Shown here: piece after piece, positions 2,936 through 43,825 of the stretch | Numbering within the stretch: position 1 is the stretch's first letter | Layout: every line of letters starts with the position of its first letter | DNA from: a virus | Reading direction: 5' to 3' (one strand) | Length of the DNA: 58,077 nucleotides | Virus record (IMG/VR): IMGVR_UViG_3300036819_000091 | Span: 1 to 58,077 of that record | The notes under the pieces: model-generated | What the model was told of the DNA's origin: nothing | The model's database searches: none | The model's input: only the letters and a program-made list of their open reading frames with translations | Made by a program: the position numbers and the translations under genes

Positions 2936-3170
2936 CGGCGCACCGCTGCCCGGCCAGGCACGCCGCGACGATGGCGGCCTGCTGGATGCGGATGGTGTCG
3001 CGCCAGTCCTCAAACCGGCGCTGCTGGCGGGCGGCTATCTCCCTGACCGAGTTGCCGGGGGTGATGATCGCCATGGGCGCCGGGGGCGGCCGGTAGTCCA
3101 GCCATGCCTGCCACTGGCGGTAGTGCTCGGCGCAGAGTGGCCGCTGGGCGGCGGTGTCAGTGGCTGGCAT
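2925..3170 (-). CDS. hypothetical protein, 81 aa
   Basis: ATG at 3170 overlaps the preceding gene by 14 bases; its own stop overlaps the next start by 11. The protein has CAEHYRQWQAWLDY near the N-terminus and a helical segment REIAARQQRRFEDWRDTIRIQQ, suggesting a small helical binding protein. No family recognised. Confidence 0.65.
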   Translation of the reverse strand: MPATDTAAQRPLCAEHYRQWQAWLDYRPPPAPMAIITPGNSVREIAARQQRRFEDWRDTIRIQQAAIVAACLAGQRCADGT

Positions 3171-3978
3171 GGTCGGGCTCCCTGCTGGTCGCGGCGGCGA
3201 TGACGCGGGCGGCTGCCCGGCGGTTGCCGCCTAGGTGCATGTCGGCTAGCTGCCGCGCGGACAGCGCCCGGCCGCTGCGGGCGCTGATGGTGTAGGCGTC
3301 TGCTGCGGCGGCCAGCGCGGCGGCCTCTGCGGCCGGGCCGGCGGCGCGCCTGCGCCGCGGTGCGGGCCGGCGCGGCGGCCCGGGGTCCGGGTCCGGGCCG
3401 GGGCGCGCCGGCGGCGCGGCGTAGGCGTACGGGTCGGGGTCGTCGGGGAACGACGGCACGCCCGGGTGCGCCGCCGGCGCGGGCTGGCGGGCCTGCTGGC
3501 GCAGGTACCGGCGCAGGGCGGCGCGGGCGCGCCACCCGGGCCGGGCCGCCGGCTGGCGCGCACGGGCGGCGCGGATCAGGCGCTTGAGCATGCCCAGCCC
3601 GACCGCCAGCAGCAGCGCCGCGGCGAGCGGCGGCACCGCGGCGGTGGCGCGCCAGGTCCAGGCGTCTGCCCATGCGTGGCCCACGTTGCCGGCCACGCTG
3701 GCGGCCAGCCCCGCGGCGGTGATGATCCACGCGGGCCACCTGGCCCGCCACCCGTAGCCGTCCAGCACCATGACGAACAGCACCATCTCGCCCACCACGG
3801 TGAAGCTGTCCACCATCAGGGGCCAGATGTACGCCCAGCCGCCGGGCAGCCCGTGGGCAGCCGCCCAGCCGAGCAGCGACCGGAACGACTCGGACAGGGC
3901 CACCGCGGTGGCCGCGATGATCCCCGCGGCGGCGACGGCCAGGGCGGCGGTGCGGACGGCGCGCTGCACGGCGCTCAT
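3157..3978 (-). CDS. DUF2637 (SpdB-like) membrane protein, 273 aa
   Basis: Residues 1-135 hold about four membrane segments: AALAVAAAGIIAATAVAL, the WAYIWPLMVDSFTVVGEMV block, WIITAAGLAASVAG, and ALLLAVGLGML. The WPLMVDSF signature is typical of DUF2637, a family seen in Streptomyces conjugative plasmids and integrative elements (spread proteins) and in some actinophages. Residues about 140-230 are an Arg/Pro/Ala-rich cytoplasmic linker. The end (SARQLADMHLGGNRRAAARVIAA) resembles the helix-turn-helix tail many members carry. Starts at ATG 3978, overlapping its upstream neighbour by 4 bases. Its role in a phage is unknown; a DNA-membrane anchoring function is speculative. Confidence 0.8.
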   Translation of the reverse strand: MSAVQRAVRTAALAVAAAGIIAATAVALSESFRSLLGWAAAHGLPGGWAYIWPLMVDSFTVVGEMVLFVMVLDGYGWRARWPAWIITAAGLAASVAGNVGHAWADAWTWRATAAVPPLAAALLLAVGLGMLKRLIRAARARQPAARPGWRARAALRRYLRQQARQPAPAAHPGVPSFPDDPDPYAYAAPPARPGPDPDPGPPRRPAPRRRRAAGPAAEAAALAAAADAYTISARSGRALSARQLADMHLGGNRRAAARVIAAATSREPDHASH

Positions 3979-4277
3979 GCGGCTGCCTCTGCCGCGGCGG
4001 CGGCGGCCACGGCGAGCCGGTCAGCGTCGAATCCGGCCCCTGTGCGGTGGGCGCGGACCAGCGCCCGCGCCGGCGGGTGCACGGCGGCTAGCTGCTCAAG
4101 CAGCCTGAGCGGCCGCTCGCCGCAGCCACGGCATACAGAGCCGGGCCACGGGACTGGCAGGCAGGTGGTTAGTGCCAGGTGGCCTCTGCGGGCCGCACAG
4201 TCGATCTGAGGGCCGCCGCGGGGGCAGGCCAGGGTGCCGTCCGGTGCGCGCCCGTACCCGCCGGTCACGGCGTCCAC
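3975..4277 (-). CDS. hypothetical Cys-rich protein, 100 aa
   Basis: Contains a possible zinc site: CPRGGPQIDC early, then CLPVPWPGSVCRGCGERPL, followed by an Ala-rich helix at the C-terminus. Its start overlaps the preceding gene by 13 bases; its stop overlaps the DUF2637 gene start (ATGA). No family recognised. Confidence 0.6.
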   Translation of the reverse strand: MDAVTGGYGRAPDGTLACPRGGPQIDCAARRGHLALTTCLPVPWPGSVCRGCGERPLRLLEQLAAVHPPARALVRAHRTGAGFDADRLAVAAAAAAEAAA

Positions 4278-4696: not shown

Positions 4697-5208
4697 AGCG
4701 CCGCCACCCCGCACGCGGCGGCGGCGCGGACCACCGCGTCGGCCAGGCCGCCCGCGTCGTCGGCGCGGCCGGCCATGGGCATGGCGGCGGCCAGCAGGTC
4801 GCGCCACGCCGCGGTGGCGGCCACGGTCGCGGCGGGGTCGTGGCGCTGGATGTGGCGGGCCACCTGCGGGGTGAGGTCCTGCACGTCGGTCAGGGCCAGG
4901 TTGCAGAGGCCCCGGCCGCCCATCGCGGGGTACTGCTGGTCTGAGTACAGGCCGGCGCTGTAGCTGCCGCACCCGCTGCGGGTGCCGTCGCCGGGGTGGT
5001 ACAGGATCTCCTGATTGCCGGCGATGGCCAGGCCGGGGTCTAGCAGGGTGTCGTCGTGGGCGCAGTGCCACCGCCACGTCTCGGGCTCTGCCGCGGGCTG
5101 CCCGGGCCGGCCGCAGGCGGCCATGGCGGCCCGGTCCTCGTCGTTCAGGGCGGCCAGTATCAGGGCGGCGGCCCGGTGCATCTGCGCGGCGGTCAGTCGG
5201 TCGGTCAT
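4693..5208 (-). CDS. hypothetical protein, 171 aa
   Basis: ATG at 5208 is chosen because CTGGAGAGG lies at 5216-5224, 7 bases upstream, exactly as at other left-arm starts. The N-terminal third is helical (TAAQMHRAAALILAALNDEDR); the middle has WRWHCAHDD, Gly and Tyr residues; the rest is Ala-rich helix. A second helical block (DPAATVAATAAWRDLLAAAM) follows. Function unknown. Confidence 0.65.
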   Translation of the reverse strand: MTDRLTAAQMHRAAALILAALNDEDRAAMAACGRPGQPAAEPETWRWHCAHDDTLLDPGLAIAGNQEILYHPGDGTRSGCGSYSAGLYSDQQYPAMGGRGLCNLALTDVQDLTPQVARHIQRHDPAATVAATAAWRDLLAAAMPMAGRADDAGGLADAVVRAAAACGVAAL

Positions 5209-5260
5209 GGTGTTGCCTCTCCAGGGTTGGCCTCGGTCAGCGGATCGTGAATGCAGGGGG

Positions 5261-5293
5261 CTAGCGGAGCGCCCACGCGGCGCGCAGCCACCC
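5261..5293 (-). pseudogene. remnant of an HNH nuclease 3' end
   Basis: These 33 bases read GWLRAAWALR-stop, nearly the last residues of the HNH gene ending at 6219 (RWLRAAWELR-stop). At DNA level 27 of 32 aligned bases agree. The stub sits just before the CTGGAGAGG of the gene at 4693-5208. The simplest reading is that gene 5304-6200 and a new HNH 3' end entered here, leaving the old 3' end behind. Confidence 0.6.
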
Positions 5294-5303
5294 CCACCTT
5301 TGG

Positions 5304-6200
5304 TCACAGGTAGTCGTCCGGCGGGCCGTCCGGTGACCCGTCCGGCCAGTCCTCGGCCAAGGAGACGGCAACTGCCCGCTCCAGTAGCGGGTAAAGCGGG
5401 GACTCGTCCGTGGCGTCCGGCGCGAGCCGGGCGAGCCGGTCCGCCAGCTCGATCAGATCTTCTAGGGCCTGCTGCACCTCGGCTGCCTGCCGCTGGCGGT
5501 GCGTGATCATCTCGCGGTACTGGCCTAGCGTGGCCTCACCGCATCGGATATGCAGCCAGCTACCCTCTGCATCACGGATGGTGACCATGGCCGGGCACAG
5601 GCCGATCTGGTCATCGCGGTCACCCCGGATTACCCCGGCGATGGTGGCGCGTAGCCCGGCCGGCACCGGACCACCCTTCAGCAGGTCTGCGTCGATGTCC
5701 AGCTCGCTGGCCAGCCCTGTGACCATGGCGGCCATAGTCACAGGGCCATCCGTCCCGTGGACGATCTTGGCCGCCGCTTTCCTGAACCGCGTGCCGCCAC
5801 TACTGAGCCGGGCCAGCGTCCGCTTACGGCGGGCGGCCTGGTAGTAGGCAGTGGGACTCGACACCGCTCGAAGCTCCCGGATGAAGTCGCTGAAATCCTG
5901 ATCGGTCATCTCCGCGTACCAGGTCGCGGCCCTGCGCTCGTGTCCCTCATACGGATGCCAGCCGAGCTGTGCCATGCGCCGCAGGGCCGTACATTCCAGG
6001 CGGGCTGCCTCCAGCGCAACGTCAGCAGCGGTCTTCTTGATCTTTGCCCATGTCCGCACCAGCTCTGCCTTCTCGCGGGCCGCACCGGCATCGGCAAGCG
6101 GCGCGGTGCCCATCGACTCCCGTACGGCTCGCATCTGCCCTATGAGCAGGCTGCCATCAAGATGGCCGCCGTCAGCGGGCACCGCTAGCTCAGCGCTCAT
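5304..6200 (-). CDS. hypothetical helical protein, 298 aa, probable recent insertion
   Basis: ATG at 6200 follows a GTGGAGGG ribosome site. The protein is mainly helical: residues 40-80 (AREKAELVRTWAKIKKTAAD), a Trp/Tyr-rich middle (GWHPYEGHERRAATWYAEM), and a long C-terminal helix (YREMITHRQRQAAEVQQALE). No family I can name. Base use differs: it is visibly richer in A/T and uses codons such as ATA, AGA and TTG that neighbours avoid. Together with the HNH stub just past its end (5261-5293), this suggests it arrived by recombination. Confidence 0.75.
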   Translation of the reverse strand: MSAELAVPADGGHLDGSLLIGQMRAVRESMGTAPLADAGAAREKAELVRTWAKIKKTAADVALEAARLECTALRRMAQLGWHPYEGHERRAATWYAEMTDQDFSDFIRELRAVSSPTAYYQAARRKRTLARLSSGGTRFRKAAAKIVHGTDGPVTMAAMVTGLASELDIDADLLKGGPVPAGLRATIAGVIRGDRDDQIGLCPAMVTIRDAEGSWLHIRCGEATLGQYREMITHRQRQAAEVQQALEDLIELADRLARLAPDATDESPLYPLLERAVAVSLAEDWPDGSPDGPPDDYL

Positions 6201-9371: not shown

Positions 9372-9941
9372 TCACCACAGAGTGTCCAGGGCCGGCGCCG
9401 CAGCCGCGTACGGGCACCCGGTCACCGGCTCGCCCCAGTGCTCCCCATCGCACTCCGTGGCCGGGTCCATGACCCGCCACGCCGCGGTCATCTTGCGGCG
9501 CAGCCCGCCCAGCGCCTGGTCTATCTCGTCGCCGCGGATGGCCTCGTAGTGCTCGCCGTCCGGCATCACTTCCTGGTCGGGGAACGCCAGGTGCCAGGCC
9601 CGCAGGTACAGGCCGTGGCCGGTCGGGTTGAGCGGCGCTAGCTGCGACGCCCCGGCGCATGCCAGCACAACCTCCGCGGCGGTCGCGGGGCGGGTGTCGG
9701 CCCCGGCGGCCAGCCGGTCGAGCAGCTCCCGGCAGTGCCCCGCGAACACGAACGGCGCCCCGCCCGTCATGCGCGGGTGGGTGGGCGCCAGGAGCTGGAA
9801 GCCGTGCCACAGCGCCAGCGCCTGCGCGGGGTGGCGGGCCTGCGCGGCGCGTACGGCGTCGTCGCCGGCCTGCCACGTGCTGGTGACCTGCACCGCCTCT
9901 GCGGTGGCCGCCGCGATGACGGCGGCCAGCTCGCCGCCCAT
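9372..9941 (-). CDS. hypothetical protein, 189 aa
   Basis: ATG at 9941 overlaps the preceding stop. Helical N-terminus (ELAAVIAAATAEAVQVTSTW), then WHGFQLLAPTHPRMTGGAPF and LYLRAWHLAFPDQEVMPDGEHYEA. It resembles uncharacterised proteins of other actinophages in length and texture, but I cannot name a family. Its stop is 11 bases before the 9338-9360 motif. Confidence 0.65.
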   Translation of the reverse strand: MGGELAAVIAAATAEAVQVTSTWQAGDDAVRAAQARHPAQALALWHGFQLLAPTHPRMTGGAPFVFAGHCRELLDRLAAGADTRPATAAEVVLACAGASQLAPLNPTGHGLYLRAWHLAFPDQEVMPDGEHYEAIRGDEIDQALGGLRRKMTAAWRVMDPATECDGEHWGEPVTGCPYAAAAPALDTLW

Positions 9942-10375
9942 CACAGCACCAGCTCGCGCAGGCCGAGCGCCGCGATCATCGCCGCCGTGGTGGCCTGCGC
10001 GGCCGGGTACATGGCCGCCCAGCAGCCAGGGCCGAATCTCTCCAGGATCTCGGCGCGGGCCGCCTCGGCGCCGGGCGCGTCGATGATGACGTACCGGCGC
10101 GCCAGCGGGATGCCCCACCCGGGCGGCGTCGGCCCCATGCCCTCGGCGGTGTTCACCACGCGGAGCCAGTGATCCTCGCCGAACGTGACCACCCACCGGC
10201 CGGGCCGGCCCGGGCGCGGCGCGCCGTAGTACGGGTCCGGGGTGATGGCCGCCGGGGGCAGGCCCGGCTCGATGCGGCCGGCGTGCAGCTCTGCGTGCTG
10301 CGCTGCGGCGCGGACCCCGCCCAGCAGCTCCAGCAGGCCGGCGGTCAGGTAGGCGTGGGCGGCGGCGTCAGCCAT
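9941..10375 (-). CDS. hypothetical protein, 144 aa
   Basis: ATG at 10375 has a GAGGAGG ribosome site that lies inside the end of the preceding gene. The centre carries RWVVTFGEDHWLRVVNTAEG, beta-like with conserved-looking Trp and His; the ends are helical. Function unknown. Confidence 0.65.
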   Translation of the reverse strand: MADAAAHAYLTAGLLELLGGVRAAAQHAELHAGRIEPGLPPAAITPDPYYGAPRPGRPGRWVVTFGEDHWLRVVNTAEGMGPTPPGWGIPLARRYVIIDAPGAEAARAEILERFGPGCWAAMYPAAQATTAAMIAALGLRELVL

Positions 10376-10652
10376 TGTTGTCCTCCTCGATTGCCTGCCG
10401 CAGGCGGCGCATGCAGCCCACGGCGCGGTCCTTGGTCCAGCCCAGCCGGGCGCCGACCTGCGCCCAGTTGTCCTCGGGGTGGGCCACCCGGGCGATGGCC
10501 ACCCGGTACCACGTGCCGGGCCACCCGTCCGGCCACTCGTCGGCGGCGGCCAGGGCCAGCGCCCACCGGGCGGCGGTCACGTCCCGGCCGGCGGCGGCGT
10601 CGCGGCGGCCCCGGTTGGCGGCGCGGAAGTTGGCGCGGCCGGCGTCGGTCAC
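10368..10652 (-). CDS. HTH DNA-binding protein, 94 aa
   Basis: GTG at 10652 overlaps the preceding stop. The second half reads YRVAIARVAHPEDNWAQV GARLGW TKDRAVGCMRRL, a helix-turn-helix of the type found in WhiA-like and sigma-like actinobacterial regulators (helix with HPE, turn at LGW, recognition helix TKDRAVGCMRRL). The N-terminal half is Arg/Ala-rich. Probably a small regulator; target unknown. Confidence 0.65.
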   Translation of the reverse strand: MTDAGRANFRAANRGRRDAAAGRDVTAARWALALAAADEWPDGWPGTWYRVAIARVAHPEDNWAQVGARLGWTKDRAVGCMRRLRQAIEEDNNG

Positions 10653-11683
10653 GGGGTGCCGGCCTGCATGCGGCGGGCGGCCTCCAGTGCGGTGGTCAGC
10701 GTGGCCCCGGTGGTGACCGCCCAGACGCGCCGCCGCGCGGTGGCGCTGCCGCCGCCCATGGACCGCACGAACCTGACCCGCCACGGCTCTGCCTCCGCGT
10801 GGTCGAACCAGACCTGGACCGCGGCGGGCAGGGCGGTCAGCGCGGCCGGCTGGTGCGGGCAGTGGTGCTGCACGGCGCGGGCCAGCGCGGTGAGGCCGGC
10901 CTCGTGGTCGCGCGGCGGCGTGAGCTGGTAGCCGCAGTCGGTGCCGTCCGGGGCGATGCCCGGGCACTCCCACCCGCCGTCGCGCAGGCGGTCAAGCTGG
11001 TGGCGGGCGCCAGAGCGGTGGCGCCGGGGGCAGGCGGGCTCGGCCGGGGTGAAGTCGTGCAGGCCGCCTGCGTGGGGGTGCACCGGGCAGTCGCCGCCGT
11101 GGGTGCAGGCGGCCGGGTCGCCGTGCAGGCAGTCAGCCGCCCAGTTGCACCGGCCCGCCGCCACGGGCGGGGCGTCCTCCCGGGGCGGCACGGCGGCGGC
11201 CATGGCGGCGGCCAGGCACATCCGCCACGACGTGTAGTTGATGCCGTGGGACTCGATGGTGGCCTCGGCGCCGGGCTCCTCGCCGCGCGCCCACCGCAGC
11301 AGTGCGTAGTCGATCACCACCAGGGCCTCCGCGCCGAACCCGATCTGCCGGGCCTGCTCGATGCCCGCCGCGATGTTGAGGCCGTCCGCGTTGGTGCCGG
11401 GGGTCAGCGCCCGGCCGTGCATGTCCCGGCGCGGGGACAGCGGCGGGGCCAGCGGCGCGCAGGTGCAGGCGTACTGCGGGGACGGGGCGTGCCCGAATGA
11501 CGGGCAGCCCGGGGCGTGGTACCGGGTGGCCACGGGCGGTGTCAGCAGCTCTGGCGGTCCCTCGCCTGCCGGGTAGTGCAGGTGGGGCGGGCGGTCATCT
11601 CCGGGGACGAACGGCGGGTGGCCCCGGTGGCCCCGGCCGGGGGTCTCGGGCAGCGGGTGCGGGTGGGGCATGGGGTCGGTCAT
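10649..11683 (-). CDS. hypothetical protein with Cys/His clusters, 344 aa
   Basis: ATG at 11683 overlaps the preceding stop; a GGAGAGG lies upstream. Residues 1-90 are Pro/His-rich and probably disordered. A helical part follows (NIAAGIEQARQIGFGAEALVVIDYALLRWARG). Residues about 175-215 hold CNWAADCLHGDPAACTHGGDCPVHPH, a dense Cys/His cluster likely to bind zinc, then CPRRHRSGARHQ and a CPGIAPDGTDCGY pair. No family recognised. Confidence 0.6.
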   Translation of the reverse strand: MTDPMPHPHPLPETPGRGHRGHPPFVPGDDRPPHLHYPAGEGPPELLTPPVATRYHAPGCPSFGHAPSPQYACTCAPLAPPLSPRRDMHGRALTPGTNADGLNIAAGIEQARQIGFGAEALVVIDYALLRWARGEEPGAEATIESHGINYTSWRMCLAAAMAAAVPPREDAPPVAAGRCNWAADCLHGDPAACTHGGDCPVHPHAGGLHDFTPAEPACPRRHRSGARHQLDRLRDGGWECPGIAPDGTDCGYQLTPPRDHEAGLTALARAVQHHCPHQPAALTALPAAVQVWFDHAEAEPWRVRFVRSMGGGSATARRRVWAVTTGATLTTALEAARRMQAGTP

Positions 11684-12006
11684 GGCGTGGTGTCCTCTCC
11701 TGGTGGCGGCACTTCGCGGAACGCGCCAAGGCGGCGCATGATCTGGATGAACGCGGTAGGCCGGGGCAGGTCGTAGAACCACCGGCACAGCGCCTCCCCG
11801 GCCTGCGGGTGCTGCCCGTCGCGCAGGGTGGCGTGGCACACCAGGTAGCTCTCCTGGCGGCGGTTGACGGCCACCAGCTCGGCCAGGCGGCCGGGCTCCA
11901 GGTGCATGGGGTTGCCGGGGCGGCCCACGCAGGTGGCGCACATCTCGGACAGGAGCCGGACGCCGCCCAGCTCCTGGTCCCACGTGTCGCCCTTGCGCAT
12001 GGTCAC
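11680..12006 (-). CDS. conserved actinophage protein, 108 aa
   Basis: The core LLSEMCATCVGRPGNPMHLEPGRLAELV followed by LVCHATL and CRWFYD matches a small family widespread in actinobacterial phages (CxTCxxRPGNxMHL, then a CH and a CRxF motif); the four Cys/His suggest metal binding. Function not known. I chose GTG 12006 because it overlaps the preceding stop; ATG 12000 is the alternative. Confidence 0.7.
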   Translation of the reverse strand: MTMRKGDTWDQELGGVRLLSEMCATCVGRPGNPMHLEPGRLAELVAVNRRQESYLVCHATLRDGQHPQAGEALCRWFYDLPRPTAFIQIMRRLGAFREVPPPGEDTTP

Positions 12007-12254
12007 AGCCCGCTGCCCGCCCCGCCGTGGCTGCGGCCCGGACGGGCCTCCGGGCCGGTGCCCTGCGGGCAGCCCGTCCGGTGGAACAGGACGGCCGCGC
12101 CGCGCCGGGTGAGCTGCCGGGTCCGCTCGCCGCAGTCGAGGCACCGGGCGTGGCCCGACACGGTCCACCCGTCATTCGGCACGGTGCTCAGGCCGGCCGC
12201 GTAGGGCGGCGGGGCGGTGCCGGGCCGGGCGGGCATGGTCTCGTCGTCAGGCAC
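12003..12254 (-). CDS. zinc-binding hypothetical protein, 83 aa
   Basis: HARCLDCGERTRQLTRRGAAVLFHRTGCP gives a CxxC ... H ... C set likely to bind one zinc. The ends are Pro/Gly-rich and probably flexible. ATG at 12254 overlaps the preceding gene by 8 bases. Confidence 0.6.
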   Translation of the reverse strand: MPDDETMPARPGTAPPPYAAGLSTVPNDGWTVSGHARCLDCGERTRQLTRRGAAVLFHRTGCPQGTGPEARPGRSHGGAGSGL

Positions 12255-12573
12255 TCTGGGCCTCCTGTTTCGCCGGGGTGCGGGGCTGCACCTGCGCTTC
12301 CACGCGGGTCAGCTTGACCTGCGTGCGCTCGCGGTTGTACGCCAGCACCCACCGGCTGGCCCCGGCGAACGCGCCGGCCGGGCAGTCGGGGGTGTGGATG
12401 CGGGTCTCGGCTACCAGCTCTACCTCGCGGGGGGTGCCGGCGCCGTCGCCTGCCGCGCGGGCCAGCAGGGCCTGCGCGGCGTCTGCGCTGACGCGGAGCT
12501 GCCCGCGCAGCATGGCCACTGCCTCCGGGCCTGCCTTGGACCCGAACACCGGGTGCGTGCTGCTGGCGCCCAT
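12247..12573 (-). CDS. hypothetical protein, 108 aa
   Basis: ATG at 12573 shares its last base with the preceding TGA. Helical N-terminal half (AVAMLRGQLRVSADAAQALLARA) and a beta half (EVELVAETRIHTPDC ... RWVLAYNRERTQVKLTRVEAQV). No family recognised. Confidence 0.6.
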   Translation of the reverse strand: MGASSTHPVFGSKAGPEAVAMLRGQLRVSADAAQALLARAAGDGAGTPREVELVAETRIHTPDCPAGAFAGASRWVLAYNRERTQVKLTRVEAQVQPRTPAKQEAQSA

Positions 12574-26227: not shown

Positions 26228-27499
26228 ATGAGCGACACGCAGAACGGCATCACCCTCGCAGCCCGCGCCACCGACCTGGCCAACCTGCGGGCGGTCCTGG
26301 AGGACCAGCGCGCACGGGCCATCGACCTGGTGATGACCCCCGGCCACTACGCGGCCGATGGGGGCAGCATCGTCATCACGGGCGCCGAGCAGGTGCTGGA
26401 GGAGAACGGCATCACCGACCCCAACGGCCGGTATGCCCCCACCCGGGTGGCCATCGACGGCCTGGCCGAGAAGCTGGGCATCCACGCCAGCTACCTGCGG
26501 CGCATCGCCGCTGACCGGCCGGACCTGTTCGACCTGAACGTGAACGGGCTGCTGCACGGCACCCCCGGCCCGCAGGGCCCGGACGGTGCCCCGTACCCGC
26601 CGCTGGCCGCCAAGCTGATGCTGCGGCTGCTGCGCGGAGACCAGAGCGGCACCGGGGTACTGCGGGCCGTGCTCAGCAACAGCTACCAGCGGATCGACAA
26701 CCTGGACGTGCTGGTGGCCGCGCTGGGCGGCGTGCGGGACGCCGGCGTGGCGGGCCGGGTGACCCGGTGCGACCTGACCGAGACGCGCATGGTCGTCGTG
26801 ATCGAGGCCCCCGAGATCAGGGCGCAGGCCCCGGGCCTGCTGGCCGGGTACCGTGACCCGTTCGGCCGGGGCGGGGTGGAGCGCATCCGGCAGCTTGCGC
26901 AGCGCGAGGGCCTCGGCTACGAGCCCGGCACCGAGCCGGTGATGCACGCCGGCATCAAGATCTCCAACTCGGAGACGGGCGACGGCCGGTTCACGGTCAG
27001 CCCGCACCTGACGGTGCAGATCTGCCGCAACGGCTACACCGTCAAGATGGACGCGCTGGGCGCCACCCACCTTGGCGGCAAGCTGGAGGAGGGCCTGGTG
27101 CGGTGGTCTGCGGCCACGCAGCGCAAGGCCCTGGAGCTGGTGGCCAGCAAGTCGCAGGACGCGGTGGGCCAGTTCCTGTCGGGCGAGTACCTGGAGCGCA
27201 AGGTCGCGGAGTGGGCCGAGCAGGCCGGCACCCCGGTCAAGGCCCCGGCCGAGACCATCACCGCCATGGTGCGCGCCAGTGCCATCCCCAACGCCTACGC
27301 CGACGAGATCCTGAACTGCTTCATCGCCGGGGGCCAGCTCACGGCGGGCGGGGTCATGCACGCGGTGACCGCCGCCGCGCAGACCGTGCAGGACGGCGAC
27401 CTGGCCGACCTGATGGAGCAGGAGTCGGTGGGGGCGCTGGCCTACGCGGCGGGCAACGCCGAGCGCATCGCGGCCAGGGCCGCCGCGCACGCCAGCTAG
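26228..27499 (+). CDS. DUF932 family phage protein, 423 aa
   Basis: The order of motifs fits the DUF932/plasmid-like family seen in many actinophages: LAEKLGIHASYLRRIAADRPDLFDLNVNGLL, VLRAVLSNSYQRIDNLDVLVAAL, LTETRMVVVIEAPEI, then ISNSETGDGRFTVSPHLTVQICRNGYTVKMDALGATHLGGKL and VRWSAATQRKALELVASKSQDAV. The protein is probably a double-stranded-DNA-associated or early protein, but its function is not established. ATG at 26228 with CTGGAGAGG at 26211-26219; own promoter upstream, strong terminator after. Confidence 0.85.
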   Translation: MSDTQNGITLAARATDLANLRAVLEDQRARAIDLVMTPGHYAADGGSIVITGAEQVLEENGITDPNGRYAPTRVAIDGLAEKLGIHASYLRRIAADRPDLFDLNVNGLLHGTPGPQGPDGAPYPPLAAKLMLRLLRGDQSGTGVLRAVLSNSYQRIDNLDVLVAALGGVRDAGVAGRVTRCDLTETRMVVVIEAPEIRAQAPGLLAGYRDPFGRGGVERIRQLAQREGLGYEPGTEPVMHAGIKISNSETGDGRFTVSPHLTVQICRNGYTVKMDALGATHLGGKLEEGLVRWSAATQRKALELVASKSQDAVGQFLSGEYLERKVAEWAEQAGTPVKAPAETITAMVRASAIPNAYADEILNCFIAGGQLTAGGVMHAVTAAAQTVQDGDLADLMEQESVGALAYAAGNAERIAARAAAHAS

Positions 27500-29017: not shown

Positions 29018-29405
29018 CCGGTACCGGCACGCAGAGGCGTTCGCGCTGATGACCTACCAGGCTGACGACGGCAGCGAGCGCGCCACGGTGTTCAACAGCC
29101 GCGACGGGGTCACCCCGTTCGTGGTCACCCTGCCGTCTGGCAAGGTGGCCAGCCACGTCAACTGGCAGGCCGACCGCGCCGCCCCGGACCACCAGCCCCG
29201 GCCCGGTGACCTCGTGTTCATCGACCTGACCCCGGAGCGGGCCAGGGCCAGGGCCGCCGCCAACTACGACCGGTTCGCCGCGGACCCCGACATGGCCGTG
29301 CACCTGCGCCGGCTGGGCGCCACCCGCGAGCAGGCAGAGGCGCGCCTGGCCGCCACGTACCTGGTGCCCGGCGCCCCCGACATGATCACGTGGCCCGCGC
29401 CGTGA
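28998..29405 (+). CDS. hypothetical protein, 135 aa
   Basis: ATG at 28998 with AAGGAGG upstream. A beta-rich N-terminal half (AFALMTYQADDGSERATVFNSRDGVTPFVVTLPSGK) and a helical C-terminal half (TPERARARAAANYDRFAADPDMAVHLRRLGATREQAEARLAATYL). No family recognised. Confidence 0.65.
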   Translation: MATTRPDRYRHAEAFALMTYQADDGSERATVFNSRDGVTPFVVTLPSGKVASHVNWQADRAAPDHQPRPGDLVFIDLTPERARARAAANYDRFAADPDMAVHLRRLGATREQAEARLAATYLVPGAPDMITWPAP

Positions 29406-29869
29406 CCGGCCCGCAGGCGCTGGCTGCGCACCTGGCCGGGTGCCGCCCGGTGCAGGCCGCGCTGGTGGCTGACGGCAGCGCCGACGACACCGTGACCGCG
29501 ATGCTGGCCGCCGGGTGGACGCTGGAGCCCGGCACCGAGCTGGTGGCAGGCAAGCGCGTCCGGTACCTGCGGCCCCCGGCGGCGCCGTGGGATGCCGCCC
29601 CGGCGGTGCCCGCGCAGTTCGCCGTGGTGGAGGACTTCCTGCGGTTCCTGGTGGCCCGCCCCGAGCTGCTGGACGCGGCCCCGGACCCGTGGCCGGCCAT
29701 GGACACCGCCGGGCGGCTCGCGGCGGGGCACTCGTGCTTCCGGTGCGCCGGCGTGGCCCGCGCCGCCGTGGTGTGCACCGAGCCGCCGGACGCGACCTGG
29801 CCCACCCGGTACCGGTGGCTGGACCTGTGCTGGCCCTGCTACGACGACATCAGGGAGGCGCACCTATGA
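29402..29869 (+). CDS. hypothetical zinc-binding protein, 155 aa
   Basis: GTG 29402 overlaps the preceding stop (a GTG at 29390 is also possible). Helical N-terminus, then a central helix (VEDFLRFLVARPELLDAA), and C-terminal HSCFRCAGVARAAVVCTEP ... WLDLCWPCYDDIRE: two Cys pairs typical of a zinc ribbon. Immediately upstream of the ParB-like gene. Confidence 0.6.
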   Translation: MTGPQALAAHLAGCRPVQAALVADGSADDTVTAMLAAGWTLEPGTELVAGKRVRYLRPPAAPWDAAPAVPAQFAVVEDFLRFLVARPELLDAAPDPWPAMDTAGRLAAGHSCFRCAGVARAAVVCTEPPDATWPTRYRWLDLCWPCYDDIREAHL

Positions 29870-30567
29870 CCGACCCCGCGTTCCGCCTGGCCGCGCAGGA
29901 GTTTGACCCGGCCATCCCGGTGGCGTCTCTGGCCGAGCACCCCGACAACCCCAACAAGGGCGACACCGAAGTGATAGCCGAGTCGCTGGACGCGCACGGG
30001 TTCTACGGGGCGGTGCTGGCGCAGCGGTCTACCGGGCGGGTGCTGGCGGGCAACCACCGGCTCCGCACCGCGGTGGCGAAGGGCGCCACGACCCTGCCGG
30101 GGTTCTGGCTGGACGTGGACGACGGCGAGGCCGAGGCCATCATGGCCGCCGACAACGAGTCCACCCGCCGCGGCGGCTACGACGAGGGGAAGCTGCTGGC
30201 CCTGCTCCAGCGGCGCAGCGCCAGCAGCCAGGGCCTGTTCGGCACGGGGTTCACCGATGCCCGGCTGGAAGACCTGCTCCACAAGTGGCAGCCCGACCCG
30301 CTGAACGGGCAGGAGGGCGACTACCAGGGGCAGGGCGGCGCCGGGTGGAACGACCCCGACCAGCCCGGCGGCAACCGGGGGCCGGCGGGGCCGCCGCTGG
30401 GCGCAAGGGGCATCCGGGACATCATCCTGGCGCTGCCCAACGACCAGGCCGACCGGCTGGCCGCCGCGGTGCGGGCCCTGCGCCACGAGTGGGACGCTGA
30501 CATGACCCAGGGCGAGGTGCTGCTGCGCGCCGCCGAGCTGGCGGTGGAAGGGCTGGAGGGCAGATGA
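29866..30567 (+). CDS. ParB/Srx-like domain protein, 233 aa, start of modification block
   Basis: Residues about 15-110 are a ParB-like domain: IPVASLAEHPDNPNKGDTEVIAESLDAHGFYGAVLAQRSTGRVLAGNHRLRTAVAKG with the signature GNHR, then LDVDDGEAEAIMAADNESTRRGGYDEGKLLALLQ. Domains of this kind sit in front of DNA methyltransferases and other DNA-modifying genes in many phages; some cleave CTP or DNA. Here no methyltransferase domain follows: residues 140-233 are a Gly/Pro-rich linker and a helical tail. It is coupled by ATGA to the glycosyltransferase gene. Confidence 0.78.
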   Translation: MTDPAFRLAAQEFDPAIPVASLAEHPDNPNKGDTEVIAESLDAHGFYGAVLAQRSTGRVLAGNHRLRTAVAKGATTLPGFWLDVDDGEAEAIMAADNESTRRGGYDEGKLLALLQRRSASSQGLFGTGFTDARLEDLLHKWQPDPLNGQEGDYQGQGGAGWNDPDQPGGNRGPAGPPLGARGIRDIILALPNDQADRLAAAVRALRHEWDADMTQGEVLLRAAELAVEGLEGR

Positions 30568-31262
30568 CGGTGCGGGCGTTCTGCATCAGCGCGCGGCGGC
30601 CCAACGCGGTGCCCGCCATGGAAGCGCAGGGCCTGCCGCTGACGTGGCTGGTGCCCGCCGACGACGCCCCCGACTACCGGGCGATGGGCGCCAGCGTGGT
30701 GCCGGTGCATGATGAGCCGGGCGAGTACAACCTGCCGCGCGCCCGGAACCTGGCCCTGGACCTGGCCGCCGGCACCGGGCACGTGTGCGTGCAGACCAGC
30801 GACGACCTGCGCCGCCTCGACATGCGCCGCGACGACGGGTGGGCCACCGCCGACCTGGCCGGCGCGGCCCGGCACCTGTACGTGGTGCTGGCCGCGACCG
30901 GCGCGAAGCTGGCCGGGCTGCCGCCCACCGCTAACCGGTACTTCGCCCGGCCCGGCGTCATGACGCGCGGGTTCGTCGTGGGTGACCTGCTGGCGGTGGC
31001 GCCCAGCGCGCCCCGGTTCGACGTGACGCTGCCGCTCAAGGAGGACTACGACTTCACGTGCCTGCACCTGGCCGCGTACGGGCAGGTGGCCCGCACGGGC
31101 GACATGGTGGCCGACTACCGGCACTACCGCAACGCGGGCGGCGCGGTGGCGTACCGCACCGACGCCCTGGAAGACGACACCGCCGCCCGGCTGCTGGCCC
31201 GGTGGCCGCAGTACCTGCGGCCCAACCCGAAGCGCGCCCACGAGCTGCTGGTGCGACGGTGA
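30564..31262 (+). CDS. TAGT-like GT-A glycosyltransferase (DNA base glycosylation), 232 aa
   Basis: The protein resembles the TET-associated glycosyltransferases predicted to put sugars on hydroxymethylated bases in phage DNA. Visible landmarks: an N-terminal strand RAFCISARRPNAVPAMEA; LPRARNLALDLAAG (ARN at 60-62) as in the nucleotide-sugar site; SDD at 79-81 in place of the usual DxD; RFDVTLPLKEDYDFTCLHLA with the EDYDF motif at 160-164; and HYRNAGGAVAYRT (AGG at 191-193). About 230 aa, near the size of the family. Context (TET/JBP gene two genes on) supports the call more than the sequence alone. ATG 30564 overlaps the ParB-like stop; GTG of the next gene overlaps its end. Confidence 0.68.
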   Translation: MTVRAFCISARRPNAVPAMEAQGLPLTWLVPADDAPDYRAMGASVVPVHDEPGEYNLPRARNLALDLAAGTGHVCVQTSDDLRRLDMRRDDGWATADLAGAARHLYVVLAATGAKLAGLPPTANRYFARPGVMTRGFVVGDLLAVAPSAPRFDVTLPLKEDYDFTCLHLAAYGQVARTGDMVADYRHYRNAGGAVAYRTDALEDDTAARLLARWPQYLRPNPKRAHELLVRR

Positions 31263-32242
31263 GGCCGCAGGCGCCGTACAGCATGCAGGTGGAGGCCACC
31301 GAGGGCTGCAACCTGCGGTGCTCGTTCTGCGGCATCCGGGGCATCCGCGAGGCGGGCGGCCGGGGTGACCTGTCGGGGCCGTACCGGTTCATGACGCCGG
31401 CCACCGCCGCGCTGGCCGCGCAGCAGGCCCGGCAGGCCATGTGGAACCCGCGCGTCGAGTTCGCCATGCACGGCGAGCCCGCCGCCAACCCGGACCTGCC
31501 GCTCCTGGTGTCGGCGTTCCGGCAGGCGCTGCCCCGGGCGCCCATCATGATCACGACCAACGGGATACCGCTGCTGGGCCGGTGGCGCTCCGCGGTGTCC
31601 GACCTGTACGACGCCGGCGCCGACACCATCGCCGTGGACAACTACCGCCCCTACCGGTGCGAGCCGTCCGTGCTGGGCACGGTGCTGCCCGGGGTGGGCG
31701 TGTACCGGTACCCGCAGGGCGGCCCGCTGGGCAACCCGCACCGCCGCCCGGCCCGGCACGAGCGGCGCCTGGTGCTGGTGCAGGACATCAGCCAGGCCGA
31801 GGACGGCACCCACGCGCACCTGTCCAACCACGCAGGCGCGGCCGGCCCGCCCGACCCCAGCCGCGACCGGGAGCGGTGCGCGCTGCCGTTCCGCGAGATC
31901 TCCGTCCGGTGGGACGGGTCCGTGGCGCTGTGCTGCAACGACTGGCGCGGCGCTTACAAGGCGGGCACCGTGGCCGACCCGGGGCTGCCCGCCATCTGGG
32001 AAGGGCCGGCGTTCGCCGCGGCGCGCAGCCACCTGTACCGGGCCACCCGCGATTTCGCGCCGTGCCAGGGCTGCACGCACCGCACCTACCGCAACGGGCT
32101 GCTGCCCGACAAGCACGGCCGGGAAGACTGGCCCGCCCCCACCGCGGATGACGAGGCGGCCATCGCCGCGGCGCTGGAAGGCGACCCGTACACCGCCCCG
32201 GTGCGCCGCAAGTGGGAGCTGCCCGTGGTGGAGGTCACATGA
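31259..32242 (+). CDS. radical SAM/SPASM enzyme, 327 aa
   Basis: The 4Fe-4S site is CNLRCSFC at residues 17-24 (CxxxCxxC), preceded by VEATEG. HGEPAANPDLPLLV at 71-84 matches the GGEP region with His in place of the first Gly, and MITTNGIPL the later strand. The C-terminal part has the SPASM pattern: RCALPFREISVRWDGSVALCCNDW (Cys207, Cys225, Cys226) and CQGCTHRTY (Cys269, Cys272), which would hold one auxiliary cluster. Such enzymes carry out radical carbon chemistry on peptides, sugars or bases. Coupled by 4-base overlaps between the glycosyltransferase and the TET/JBP gene, so it probably edits the modified base or its sugar. Product unknown. Confidence 0.85.
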   Translation: MRPQAPYSMQVEATEGCNLRCSFCGIRGIREAGGRGDLSGPYRFMTPATAALAAQQARQAMWNPRVEFAMHGEPAANPDLPLLVSAFRQALPRAPIMITTNGIPLLGRWRSAVSDLYDAGADTIAVDNYRPYRCEPSVLGTVLPGVGVYRYPQGGPLGNPHRRPARHERRLVLVQDISQAEDGTHAHLSNHAGAAGPPDPSRDRERCALPFREISVRWDGSVALCCNDWRGAYKAGTVADPGLPAIWEGPAFAAARSHLYRATRDFAPCQGCTHRTYRNGLLPDKHGREDWPAPTADDEAAIAAALEGDPYTAPVRRKWELPVVEVT

Positions 32243-33156
32243 TCAGCGTCAGGCTGCGGACCCGCACCCCCCGCCGGGAGCTGGACCAGGTAGCCGGCAT
32301 GGTGCTGGGCGAAGACGCGCACAACCTGCTGCTCACCGGCCCCGCGCAGGTGCTGATGCCAGACGGGCGCCCGCTGTGCGTGTACCTGCCCGGCTGGATG
32401 GCCGGCCACGTCACCGAGGAGCACTACCAGATCCTGCACGGGCTGCGGTCGCAGACCACCGACAATCGCGGCCTGGCCGCCGGGGGCAGGCGGATGCCCC
32501 GCGGCGACCAGAAGCGCACCCGCACCCTGAACGTGGCCAGCGCCATCCTCGGCGCGGTGGACCCCACCGGGACCACCCGGTACTGCCGGCTCACGTCGTG
32601 GACCGGGCAGAATCTGCCCGGCTGGCAGGAGCTGCACGGCCCGCTGCTGCGCGTGGCAGAGGCCATGCGCGAGTACGTGCCCGACCGGACCGCGGTGCAG
32701 CAGGCCGAGATCGACGCCACCCACCCCGACTGGGTAGTGCCCGGCACCCCGTTCACCACGGTGACGGTGAACAACACCTACCCGACCGGCGTGCACACCG
32801 ACAAGGGCGACCTGGCCGCCGGGTTCAGCAGCATTTTCGCCATCCGCCGCGGCGACTGGACCGGCGGGCGGCTGGTGTTCCCGGAGTGGCGGGTGGCCGC
32901 CGACCTGGCAGACGGCGACCTGATCCTGATGGACGCCCACCAGTGGCACGGCAACACGGCCATCACGTGCCGGTGCGGCACCCGCCTGGCCCGCATGTGC
33001 CCGGCCTGCGGCGCCGAGCGGGTCAGCGTGGTGGCGTACATGCGCGCCAAGCTGACCGGGTGCGCCAGCGAGGCCGAGGAGACCGCCAGGGCGATCCGGG
33101 CGCGAGAGGCAGGCAAGGGCCTGGAGCGGGGCCAGCAGCCGCTCAGCACCGAATAG
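32239..33156 (+). CDS. TET/JBP-type 2-oxoglutarate/Fe(II) DNA base dioxygenase, 305 aa
   Basis: The double-stranded beta-helix core is plain: VNNTYPTGVHTDKGDL with the iron ligands His186 and Asp188, FSSIFAIRRGDWTGGRLVFPEW (GG-L-FPE strand typical of the family), LADGDLILMDAHQWHGNT with the second iron-binding His (234 or 237), and ERVSVVAYMR with the Arg that would hold 2-oxoglutarate (261 or 269). TET/JBP enzymes oxidise the methyl group of 5-methylcytosine or thymine in DNA to hydroxymethyl. Between the second His and the Arg a CRCGTRLARMCPAC insert looks like a zinc knuckle. ATG 32239 overlaps the radical SAM stop; last gene of the coupled block. Confidence 0.87.
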   Translation: MISVRLRTRTPRRELDQVAGMVLGEDAHNLLLTGPAQVLMPDGRPLCVYLPGWMAGHVTEEHYQILHGLRSQTTDNRGLAAGGRRMPRGDQKRTRTLNVASAILGAVDPTGTTRYCRLTSWTGQNLPGWQELHGPLLRVAEAMREYVPDRTAVQQAEIDATHPDWVVPGTPFTTVTVNNTYPTGVHTDKGDLAAGFSSIFAIRRGDWTGGRLVFPEWRVAADLADGDLILMDAHQWHGNTAITCRCGTRLARMCPACGAERVSVVAYMRAKLTGCASEAEETARAIRAREAGKGLERGQQPLSTE

Positions 33157-41635: not shown

Positions 41636-43825
41636 GTGGCCGGCCCCGGCCTGATCTTCACCGCGACCACCGGGGCTGCGCTCACGGCCACCACCGGGCT
41701 GCACCTGGTGGCGTCTGCCACCGCGGCGCCGGCCGGGGTGGCGCAGGCCGCCGCGACCGCTGAGGCCGCCACTGTCCTGGCGGCCCCGCACCCGCCGGCT
41801 GCCGCGGTCACTGCTGCGGCAGAGGCACCGGCCGGGCGCACAGCCCCGCAGCCGGCTGCGGCCACAGCCGCCGCGGTGGCGCAGGCCCCGTCTGTCACGT
41901 CGGTGTCGCTGACCGCCGCGCCGGCCGGGCTGGCCGCTGCCACTGCGGCAGCCCCCGCGCCTGGTGCCCTGGTCGCGCCGGCGGCGGCGGCGGCGACACC
42001 GGGTGCCTCTGCGCCGCAGCCCGCCGCCGCGGTGGCCGCCCGCCCGCCGCAGGCCGCAGCCACCGCAGTGGCCGAGCCGCCCGCAGTCACCGCGGTGGCC
42101 GCCACCAGCGCGCCCGCCGGGCTGGCGTCTGCCGCTGCCGCAGCGCCAGGCCCTGCCGTGCTGGTGGGGGCGGCCCCGCCCGCTGCTGCCGCCGCCGCAG
42201 CCGGCGAGCCGCCGCTGGCTGCCGTGGCATCCCGCGCTGCCGTGGCCGCCGCCGTGGCTGCCGCACCCGGGCCGCTGCCCGGCGCGGCCGGCCGCCCGGC
42301 CGCTGCCACCGCTGCCACCGCGGCAGAGGCACCCGCGGCGGCCATCGCCGTTGCGGCGCAGCCCGCGCAGCCCGCAGCCACGGCACCCGGCCCGCTGCCC
42401 GCCCCGGGTGCCAGGCCGCCAGCCGCCACCGCAACGGCGACCGCCGAGCCGCCAGCGGTCAGCACCGTGTCGGCTGCCAGCGCCCCGGCCGGGGTGGCGC
42501 AGGCCAGTGCCGCAGCACCCGGCCCGGCTGTCCTGGTCGCGGCGCAGCCGCCCGCTGCCGTGGCCACGGGCACCGCAGAGCCGGCCGGCCCGCTGGCGGC
42601 GCCGCGCCCGCCGGCCGCGCAGGCCACCGCGACCGCTGAGCCGCCCCGCGCCGCGGCAGCCGCCACCCCGGCGGCAGCGGCAGCCGCCGGCACCGCACCC
42701 CAGCCAGCCGCCAGCGTGGCCGCCCGGGCACCGGCCGCCGCCGCCACGGCCACGGCCGAGCCGGCCGCCGTGAGCACGGTCACGAGCACCAGCGCCCCGG
42801 CGGGGGCGGCGTCTGCCACGGCCAGCGCACCCGGCCCGGGCGCGCACGTGGCCGCCGCGCCCGGCCCGGCCGCCGCTGCGGCCACCGCGCAGCCGCCGCG
42901 CCCCGCGCCCGCCGCCATGGCACCCGCAGCCGCCCCCGCCGCCGCGGCGCCGCAGCCGCGTACTGGCGTGGCCGGCCTGGCACCGGCCGCTGGCGCTGTG
43001 GCCGCAGCGCCGCCGCCCGCCGCCGGCATCGGCGCCCGGCCGGGCACGGCCACAGCGGGCGCCACGGCCCCGCAGCCGTCTGCGGCCACCGCGGCGTCGG
43101 TCAGCGCCCAGGCCGGGTGCGCGCCTGCGTCTGCTGCCGCGCCTGCGCCCGCCGCGGCGGTAGCCGCACGGCCACCCGCAGCCACCGCCGCGGGCGCCGC
43201 GCCGCCGCCGGCCCCGGCAGTGGCCGCCCGCCCGGCGCCTGCTGCTGCCACCGCCACGGCAGAGGCGCCTGCGGTCACCACCGCGGTGACCACCAGCGCC
43301 CCCGCCGGGGCAGCCGCTGCCGCCGCCGCCGCGCCCAGCCCGGCAGCAGCGGTGGCCGCGCCAGCCCAGCCAGCGCAGCCCGCCGCAGCCGCGCCCCGCC
43401 CGGTGCCTGCCGTGGCACCAGCCGCCAGCACAGCCGCAGCCGCGGCGACCGCGCCGCCGCCTGCCGCGTCGGCGGTGCCGGTTACCATGGCTGCGGCCGG
43501 CCTGGCGCATGCCTCTGCCGCCGGGCTGGCCGCTACAGCCGCCGTGGCCGCCCGCGCCGGCCTGGCCGCCGCCCTGGCCCTGGCCGTGCCGCCGTTCGCG
43601 CTGGTGCCCCCGGCGGTGCAGCTCTCGCCCATGGACGCCGGCGCCCCCCACGGCCGGTGGGCCGCCGGGCAGCCGCAGCAGCCCCGCGTGTCCGCTGCGG
43701 CGCCGGGCGCCAGGTGGGCGGGCGGCAAGCCAGCCGGGCGGTGGGACGCGGAAAGCGCGGCCGGTCGTTACGCTGCTGGTACCCCGGTGTCAGTGTGGGA
43801 CGCCGGGCAGCCCCACGGCCCGTAG
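41636..43825 (+). CDS. 729-aa Ala/Pro-rich repeat protein, probable fibre or decoration
   Basis: Residues about 28-650 are low-complexity Ala/Pro/Val/Thr with imperfect repeats of the form (S/T)APAG(V/L)A..A.AAPGPA(V/A)LVAA.PPAAA.ATAEPPAV; copies centred near 31, 95, 159, 283, 387, 491 and 555, spaced about 64 or 104 residues. Residues 1-27 (GLIFTATTGAALTATTGLHL) are an ordered start. Residues 660-729 are different: HGRWAAGQP, GARWAGGKPAGRWDAE, GRYAAGTP and VWDAGQPHG, a G-R-W/G-P repeat typical of actinophage structural proteins. A rigid, extended rod on the virion is my best guess. GTG 41636 follows GAGGAGG. The reverse strand carries long open frames purely because of the composition. Confidence 0.7.
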   Translation: MAGPGLIFTATTGAALTATTGLHLVASATAAPAGVAQAAATAEAATVLAAPHPPAAAVTAAAEAPAGRTAPQPAAATAAAVAQAPSVTSVSLTAAPAGLAAATAAAPAPGALVAPAAAAATPGASAPQPAAAVAARPPQAAATAVAEPPAVTAVAATSAPAGLASAAAAAPGPAVLVGAAPPAAAAAAAGEPPLAAVASRAAVAAAVAAAPGPLPGAAGRPAAATAATAAEAPAAAIAVAAQPAQPAATAPGPLPAPGARPPAATATATAEPPAVSTVSAASAPAGVAQASAAAPGPAVLVAAQPPAAVATGTAEPAGPLAAPRPPAAQATATAEPPRAAAAATPAAAAAAGTAPQPAASVAARAPAAAATATAEPAAVSTVTSTSAPAGAASATASAPGPGAHVAAAPGPAAAAATAQPPRPAPAAMAPAAAPAAAAPQPRTGVAGLAPAAGAVAAAPPPAAGIGARPGTATAGATAPQPSAATAASVSAQAGCAPASAAAPAPAAAVAARPPAATAAGAAPPPAPAVAARPAPAAATATAEAPAVTTAVTTSAPAGAAAAAAAAPSPAAAVAAPAQPAQPAAAAPRPVPAVAPAASTAAAAATAPPPAASAVPVTMAAAGLAHASAAGLAATAAVAARAGLAAALALAVPPFALVPPAVQLSPMDAGAPHGRWAAGQPQQPRVSAAAPGARWAGGKPAGRWDAESAAGRYAAGTPVSVWDAGQPHGP

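Follow-up and report, generated by a model that had tools for sequence, protein, structure and literature searches.

The window analysed here is the whole of IMG/VR virus record IMGVR_UViG_3300036819_000091 (58,077 bases, positions 1 to 58,077). At 29866-33156 it carries genes for a ParB-like protein, a TAGT-like glycosyltransferase, a radical SAM enzyme and a TET/JBP dioxygenase, which on sequence comparison most likely form a DNA-base hypermodification system. The GC content of the window is about 75% and it encodes DnaB, RusA, RecT, YqaJ and terminase proteins, together with a portal, a head protease and a major head protein. The terminase is nearest to those of phages of Arthrobacter, Brevibacterium and Glutamicibacter and of one Microcystis phage, with 34-38% identity, and by its sequence the window is from an uncultivated tailed phage of actinobacterial type. 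The contig is incomplete, because it stops inside a tape-measure gene that begins at the window end and is truncated there. The genes of the block and the one preceding it are as follows.

29390 to 29869, plus strand: 159-residue protein with CxxC pairs; coding call, with a 4-base overlap with the ParB-like gene
29866 to 30567, plus strand: ParB-like protein, 233 residues, GNHR motif; PHROG 723
30564 to 31262, plus strand: TAGT-like GT-A glycosyltransferase (P0002), 232 residues; assigned by fold, PF20691 score below the cut-off
31259 to 32242, plus strand: twitch-type radical SAM enzyme, BtrN/SpeY-like (P0003), 327 residues, GTG start; PF04055 and PF13186
32239 to 33156, plus strand: TET/JBP 2-oxoglutarate (2OG)-Fe(II) dioxygenase (P0004), 305 residues; PF12851

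The original prediction, made from the letters alone, was of these four gene types joined by a 4-base overlap at every junction, and this is borne out by the coordinates and the overlapping letters (ATGA at 30564, GTGA at 31259 and ATGA at 32239). The motifs it named, the HxD...H...R iron site, EDYDF, GNHR and CxxxCxxC, are all present. The coding signal is strong in all four cassette genes, with a GC content at third codon positions of 0.95-0.97. The overlaps are not special, because 16 of the 88 same-strand neighbour pairs in this genome have them, and they were dropped as particular proof of coupling. The run of overlaps also begins one gene earlier than had been proposed, at 29390-29869, so that of the overlap-coupled block the overlaps stand but not their special status or the start. 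The 159-residue protein encoded by this upstream gene had no PHROG match and no relative among the fetched loci at E≤1e-8, and its membership of the cassette is doubtful.

The identification of P0004 as a TET/JBP oxygenase is firm. It matches Tet_JBP (PF12851) with an E-value of 2e-15 and 56.8 bits against a cut-off of 34.9, and the residues of the iron triad and the 2OG-binding arginine (H186xD188, H237 and R261/R269) are invariant over 24 relatives. A profile search found no relatives of the protein in the PDB, and its match to phrog_6059, 'queuine tRNA-ribosyltransferase', was taken to reflect a misnamed family. Between the distal histidine and the conserved arginine there is a zinc-ribbon-like insert (CxC...CxxC, residues 244-257, window 32968-33010), which is found in many though not all relatives.

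To place the enzyme amongst its relatives, TET loci were collected with the window TET (61 viral loci), with its profile, which gave further ones, and with the TET of Methylophilales phage Melnitz-3 (71 loci). In the 184 loci with a TET, a set that was not dereplicated, a ParB-like gene is found in 93 and a C5-methyltransferase in 63, while none has both; TETs of the clade to which the window belongs often have the ParB-like protein as a partner. ADDT (PF18724, named 'amino acid:DNA transferase' in Pfam), PALP and FAD-enzyme genes are present in 58, 34 and 17 loci respectively, in no case alongside a C5-methyltransferase, and the gene order around the nearest relatives is ParB, ADDT, PALP, kinase, TET. 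Among the 93 TETs placed on a tree, the window protein lies inside a 70-row clade without C5-methyltransferases, and the smallest supported set around it comprises 17 rows, 14 of them with ADDT, PALP or FAD-enzyme genes. The 13 C5-methyltransferase-linked TETs, with one other row, form a separate clade (support 100/99). ADDT-linked and methyltransferase-linked TETs have different fixed residues at 16 columns, and at every one of these the window protein is of the ADDT type. Neither a kinase for 5-hydroxymethyluracil (5hmU) nor an amino acid:DNA transferase is found in the block, though the nearest TET relatives have both. As a separate observation, four of the ParB-TET cassettes (L030, L034, L037 and L040) combine ADDT with an amidoligase-like protein, an LMWP-type phosphatase and an FAD oxidoreductase.

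The ParB-like protein itself matches PHROG 723 (ParB-like) with an E-value of 1.2e-31 and carries the sequence AGNHR; it has no match to a ParB family of Pfam.

The glycosyltransferase P0002 contains the motifs SDD and EDYDF, with D80, D81 and D161 invariant, and its AlphaFold2 model has a pLDDT of 92.3. The best match of the model in BFVD, a library of viral structures, is a TAGT protein (E 1.6e-21, TM 0.87), with a Klebsiella phage beta-glucosyl-HMC-alpha-glucosyltransferase lower down. Amongst the PDB entries its best match is AvpGT, a nucleoside-specific 3'-O-glycosyltransferase (PMC11959488). No sequence relatives of P0002 were found in the PDB or in the phage collection; through other relatives, however, it is linked to proteins that score 51-66 bits against the TAGT family PF20691, one of which, at 5229-6032 of locus L081, scores 65.8 bits and falls into one profile family with P0002. 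As modelled, P0002 has a TAGT fold with an acidic metal motif.

The radical SAM enzyme P0003 scores above the cut-off against Radical_SAM (PF04055; 5e-11, 43.5 bits against 29.5) and against SPASM (PF13186; 1.7e-10, 41.5 bits). In addition to the C17xxxC21xxC24 motif it has four invariant auxiliary cysteines, C207, C225, C269 and C272, which align with C169, C187, C232 and C235 of BtrN at a spacing of 18/44/3 as against 18/45/3. A two-cluster SPASM domain has seven auxiliary cysteines and P0003 only these four, and since they align with those of BtrN we describe the domain as a one-cluster twitch domain. The cysteines and the SPASM match of the original prediction are consequently retained, with a full SPASM domain replaced by the twitch form. 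By profile against the PDB, P0003 is close to BtrN (7e-18), and BtrN (2.3e-13) and SpeY (6.9e-7), together with BlsE and DesII, are among the best PDB matches of its model in Foldseek. BtrN is a twitch enzyme with one auxiliary cluster that carries out the two-electron oxidation of an aminocyclitol alcohol (PMC9012708). No named NCBIfam radical SAM family reached its cut-off (best 32.8 bits against 170), and tblastn gave no match in 50,697 phage records, none of which has the four-gene combination either. P0003 was also considered as an isomerase of the type found in Pseudomonas phage M6, and this was rejected, as the P0003 profile gave no match to the radical SAM protein of M6.

The association between the radical SAM enzyme and a glycosyltransferase extends well beyond the window. 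With the radical SAM protein as the only query, 22 viral loci were retrieved. In the loci from L074 to L093 a TAGT-like gene is always present, mostly overlapping or adjacent and at most 3.6 kb away; for comparison, such a gene is seen in 30 of the 184 TET loci. Two contigs (L020/L072 and L021/L073) have the radical SAM gene without a TAGT-like gene, and in one of them (L021, the same as L073) a glycosyltransferase of the GT4-like type lies between the ParB and radical SAM genes, giving the gene order of the window. The radical SAM enzyme is found with TET in the window, L021, L074, L118, L119 and L093, the last four of which hold all four gene types in other orders. The block had been suggested to be a distinct combination and order lacking a methyltransferase; the window is indeed free of one, but the combination is not unique, nor, given L021, is the order.

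Where the radical SAM-TAGT pair occurs without TET, it is accompanied in 13 records by a homologue of thymidylate synthase (PF00303) and in nearly all by a protein of PF18723, named '5-hmdU DNA kinase, helical domain' (HMUDK_hel) in Pfam. The TET and thymidylate synthase contexts are mutually exclusive, with no record containing both, and no PF00303 protein was found in the window, which has TET. In this family of synthases an asparagine at one site goes with uracil and an aspartate with cytosine. All 12 complete copies have asparagine where the CMP hydroxymethylase MilA has aspartate, as do T4 thymidylate synthase and the homologues of M6 and of Brevibacterium phage LuckyBarnes. Profiles of the two partner families find proteins of M6 with E-values of 6.5e-123 (thymidylate synthase) and 2.7e-72 (PF18723). 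The DNA of M6 contains 5-(2-aminoethyl)deoxyuridine, thought to derive from 5-hydroxymethyldeoxyuridine (5hmdU; PMC6449724). The PF18723 protein was not accepted as a complete kinase, as there is no P-loop motif in it or in the M6 protein, and it is assigned to the helical family only. A C5-methyltransferase is present in none of the 34 records linked to the radical SAM and TAGT proteins. All TET-linked radical SAM proteins group in a single clade (support 99/98), while their TETs lie in several parts of the TET tree, so that the modules have been reshuffled. A Patescibacteria metagenome-assembled genome (L208) also has the radical SAM, thymidylate synthase and PF18723 proteins, with no TAGT-like gene found within its 12 kb.

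Three further observations concern these phages. One (L083) has both a GT4-like and a TAGT-like transferase (3097-4209 and 5145-5981) with the radical SAM gene and the synthase homologue. In another with the radical SAM-TAGT pair (L075), a family A DNA polymerase carries a fused domain that resembles uracil-DNA glycosylase (9772-12402). The cultured phage LuckyBarnes (L207, 6436-10451) has in a row a uracil-type synthase homologue, two TAGT-like glycosyltransferases and a relative of PF18723, and from these genes would be a candidate laboratory phage for glycosylated 5hmU DNA.

On balance we favour, by a modest degree of confidence, a post-replicative cassette in which TET would produce 5hmU, the glycosyltransferase would add a sugar and the radical SAM enzyme would alter that sugar. 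On a pyrimidine that is already part of the phage DNA, most likely thymine, TET/JBP would hydroxylate the 5-methyl group to give 5hmU, and would stand in for the dUMP hydroxymethylase that works at the nucleotide level in the related phages. The TAGT-like GT-A enzyme would then attach a sugar to the hydroxymethyl group, forming a nucleotide like base J. Finally, the twitch enzyme would take a hydrogen from the sugar and oxidise or epimerise it in the manner of BtrN or SpeY, and the ParB-like protein may bring the enzymes to the DNA. From its model, P0003 probably remodels a sugar: the closest folds are alcohol dehydrogenases of sugar-like rings, and a glycosyltransferase is nearly always alongside, whatever the source of the base or the type of transferase. 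That thymine is oxidised in place, glycosylated by the TAGT-like enzyme and then carries a DNA-bound sugar on which a new family of radical SAM enzyme acts, to give a keto- or epi-glycosyl 5hmU, we propose only tentatively. By analogy with other phages that have hypermodified DNA, the purpose is likely to be protection from host nucleases. The original prediction, of a base that is hydroxymethylated, glycosylated and altered by radical chemistry, had left the base open; hypermodification is retained, now refined in favour of thymine over 5-methylcytosine (5mC) and of a radical step that would take place on the sugar.

We consider thymine, through 5hmU, the probable base, since the window TET nests with TETs linked to thymidine hypermodification and the radical SAM-TAGT pair occurs elsewhere with synthase and kinase-type proteins like those of M6. 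Oxidation of 5mC, after methylation by a methyltransferase of the host or of the unsequenced part of the phage, and with 5-hydroxymethylcytosine (5hmC) then glycosylated and radically changed, seems unlikely, whether taken as this complete route or, with only slightly more weight, as the choice of base. No C5-methyltransferase (PF00145) is found in the window, as had been predicted, or in the records of L021 (= L073), L074, L118, L119 and L093, and the uracil-type hydroxymethylases and the ADDT-linked TET clade point the same way. There are, however, several observations that weigh against the thymine route and its enzymes. Because the sequence breaks off within the tape-measure gene, the absence of a methyltransferase from the window is no proof. 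In Actinomadura rayongensis DSM 102126 (L209 and L211; NZ_WUTW01000008.1), a genome scan found a relative of the radical SAM protein with 62% identity, in the order radical SAM, C5-methyltransferase (3 bases on), ParB, GT4-like transferase, TET and small terminase. Large terminase, portal, coat and tape-measure genes follow on this contig, which makes the locus a prophage. The one other match among the 347 genomes scanned (L215, genome G319, of the same order as A. rayongensis) has the same gene set with a related C5-methyltransferase, and in both loci the methyltransferase adjoining the radical SAM gene is intact, so that, going by these genes, TET may act on 5mC there. At the discriminating columns the TETs of these two loci differ little from the window TET, so that these columns may reflect descent and not base specificity; the records of L074, L118 and L119, which have the nearest TETs to theirs, span 25-40 kb and contain no methyltransferase. 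Melnitz-type TETs adjoin a C5-methyltransferase, the T6 TAGT enzyme acts on glucosylated hydroxymethylcytosine (hmC; PMC13216743), and P-loop kinases accompany both ParB-type and C5-methyltransferase-linked TETs in the 184 loci, for which reason they were dropped as a marker of 5hmU. As to the enzymes, the P0003 model has a moderate pLDDT of 77.1 and is poor in the region of the cluster loop. P0002 matches PF20691 over model positions 33-205 of 205 with an E-value of only 0.03 and 14.7 bits against a cut-off of 27.5, and is filed as TAGT-like only; the TAGT assignment of the original prediction holds at the level of the fold and not at the Pfam cut-off. Profile searches had been proposed as a check on the block: the oxygenase and SPASM matches pass their cut-offs and the TAGT match does not.

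It is also conceivable, though we think it rather improbable, that the radical SAM enzyme does not act on the DNA-bound sugar, and instead prepares an unusual donor sugar in advance or changes the base itself. DesII is among the structural matches of P0003, and radical SAM enzymes of this type work on nucleotide-sugars; linkage to a glycosyltransferase would fit donor synthesis equally well. The radical SAM enzymes of M6 and ViI reportedly act on side chains derived from amino acids (Lee et al. 2022). BtrN and SpeY are, however, closest by both profile and fold, the M6 protein lies outside the P0003 profile, and among those window genes that were scanned, none near the block was recognised as a further sugar-nucleotide gene. 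A target other than DNA, such as a surface polymer, a RiPP-like peptide or a tRNA, is very unlikely: glycosyltransferases are common in phages and SPASM/twitch proteins often mature peptides (PMC9012708), but P0002 matches TAGT proteins by its fold and the pair recurs across contigs with nucleobase enzymes, either TET and ParB or thymidylate synthase and HMUDK_hel. Less probable still is an accidental neighbourhood of genes with no common pathway. The frequency of 4-base overlaps in this genome would allow for it, but genes of these kinds are also grouped, in rearranged form, on at least four further contigs (L074, L118, L119 and L093).

The predicted 5hmU route shares features with several known systems. 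Base J synthesis in kinetoplastids (JBP1/2 and JGT) likewise pairs a TET/JBP oxygenase with a glycosyltransferase, and glycosylated 5hmU is what would be formed here; the window differs in being from a bacterial virus with a TAGT-type transferase, an extra radical SAM step and a ParB partner. To our knowledge BtrN and SpeY, whose fold is the best match to P0003 and, for BtrN, whose four auxiliary-cluster cysteines align with it, have no DNA substrate; their substrates are small antibiotic precursors and their identity to P0003 is at most 20%. The cassettes of ParB and TET/JBP with ADDT, PALP and kinase (L003-L019) resemble the window in having ParB first, a TET of the same clade with 60-65% identity and no adjoining C5-methyltransferase. 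The isolated Rhodococcus phage Tonitrus also has ParB and a TET-like protein, though the latter is only distantly related; it encodes in addition aGPT-Pplase2 and a kinase, which its authors describe as a possible thymidine-hypermodification system (PMC11955845). In all of these, ADDT, PALP, FAD-enzyme or kinase genes take the place of the glycosyltransferase and radical SAM genes. M6, like the route predicted here, has a radical SAM enzyme in a 5hmdU-derived pathway, and its proteins match the synthase and HMUDK_hel partners of the pair in other phages, but its 5hmdU is made at the nucleotide level, its radical SAM protein is outside the P0003 family, and neither TET nor TAGT was found in the stretch of M6 searched. 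Melnitz-type systems have a TET/JBP oxygenase and sometimes a TAGT-like transferase as in the window, but with a TET of a separate clade, a methyltransferase adjoining it, no ParB and no radical SAM enzyme. The beta-glucosyl-HMC-alpha-glucosyltransferase of T6 (TAGT, PF20691) has the GT-A TAGT fold of P0002, but adds a second glucose to glucosylated hmC (PMC13216743), and no first glucosyltransferase was found in the window system.

TET/JBP, TAGT and radical SAM enzymes have each already been known or predicted in phage DNA modification. Iyer et al. (2013) reportedly predicted phage TET/JBP enzymes together with glycosyltransferases and other enzymes, and Burke et al. (2021) are said to have shown TET activity on 5mC for metagenomic phages. 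What the comparison isolates is a recurring glycosyltransferase-radical SAM pair fed by two different sources of hydroxymethylpyrimidine. As far as we have checked, the radical SAM family, its TAGT-like pairing in two 5-hydroxymethylpyrimidine contexts and its likely sugar-directed reaction are new, though the combination may partly be contained in the work of Iyer et al. If the proposal is right, base J would have a bacterial counterpart in a new class of DNA base, with a radically remodelled sugar on 5hmU, and a DNA glycoside would be the substrate of a radical SAM enzyme. A related cassette could be tested, because two actinobacterial genomes hold a related version and one of them, A. rayongensis, is a DSM strain.

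Elsewhere in the window, a 423-residue protein of PHROG 1362, a family without an assigned function (1.4e-71), is encoded upstream of the block at 26228-27499. Just before the large terminase region, at 41636-43825, there is a 729-residue reading frame of low complexity, made up nearly entirely of Ala, Pro, Gly, Thr and Val, with a GC content of 84%.

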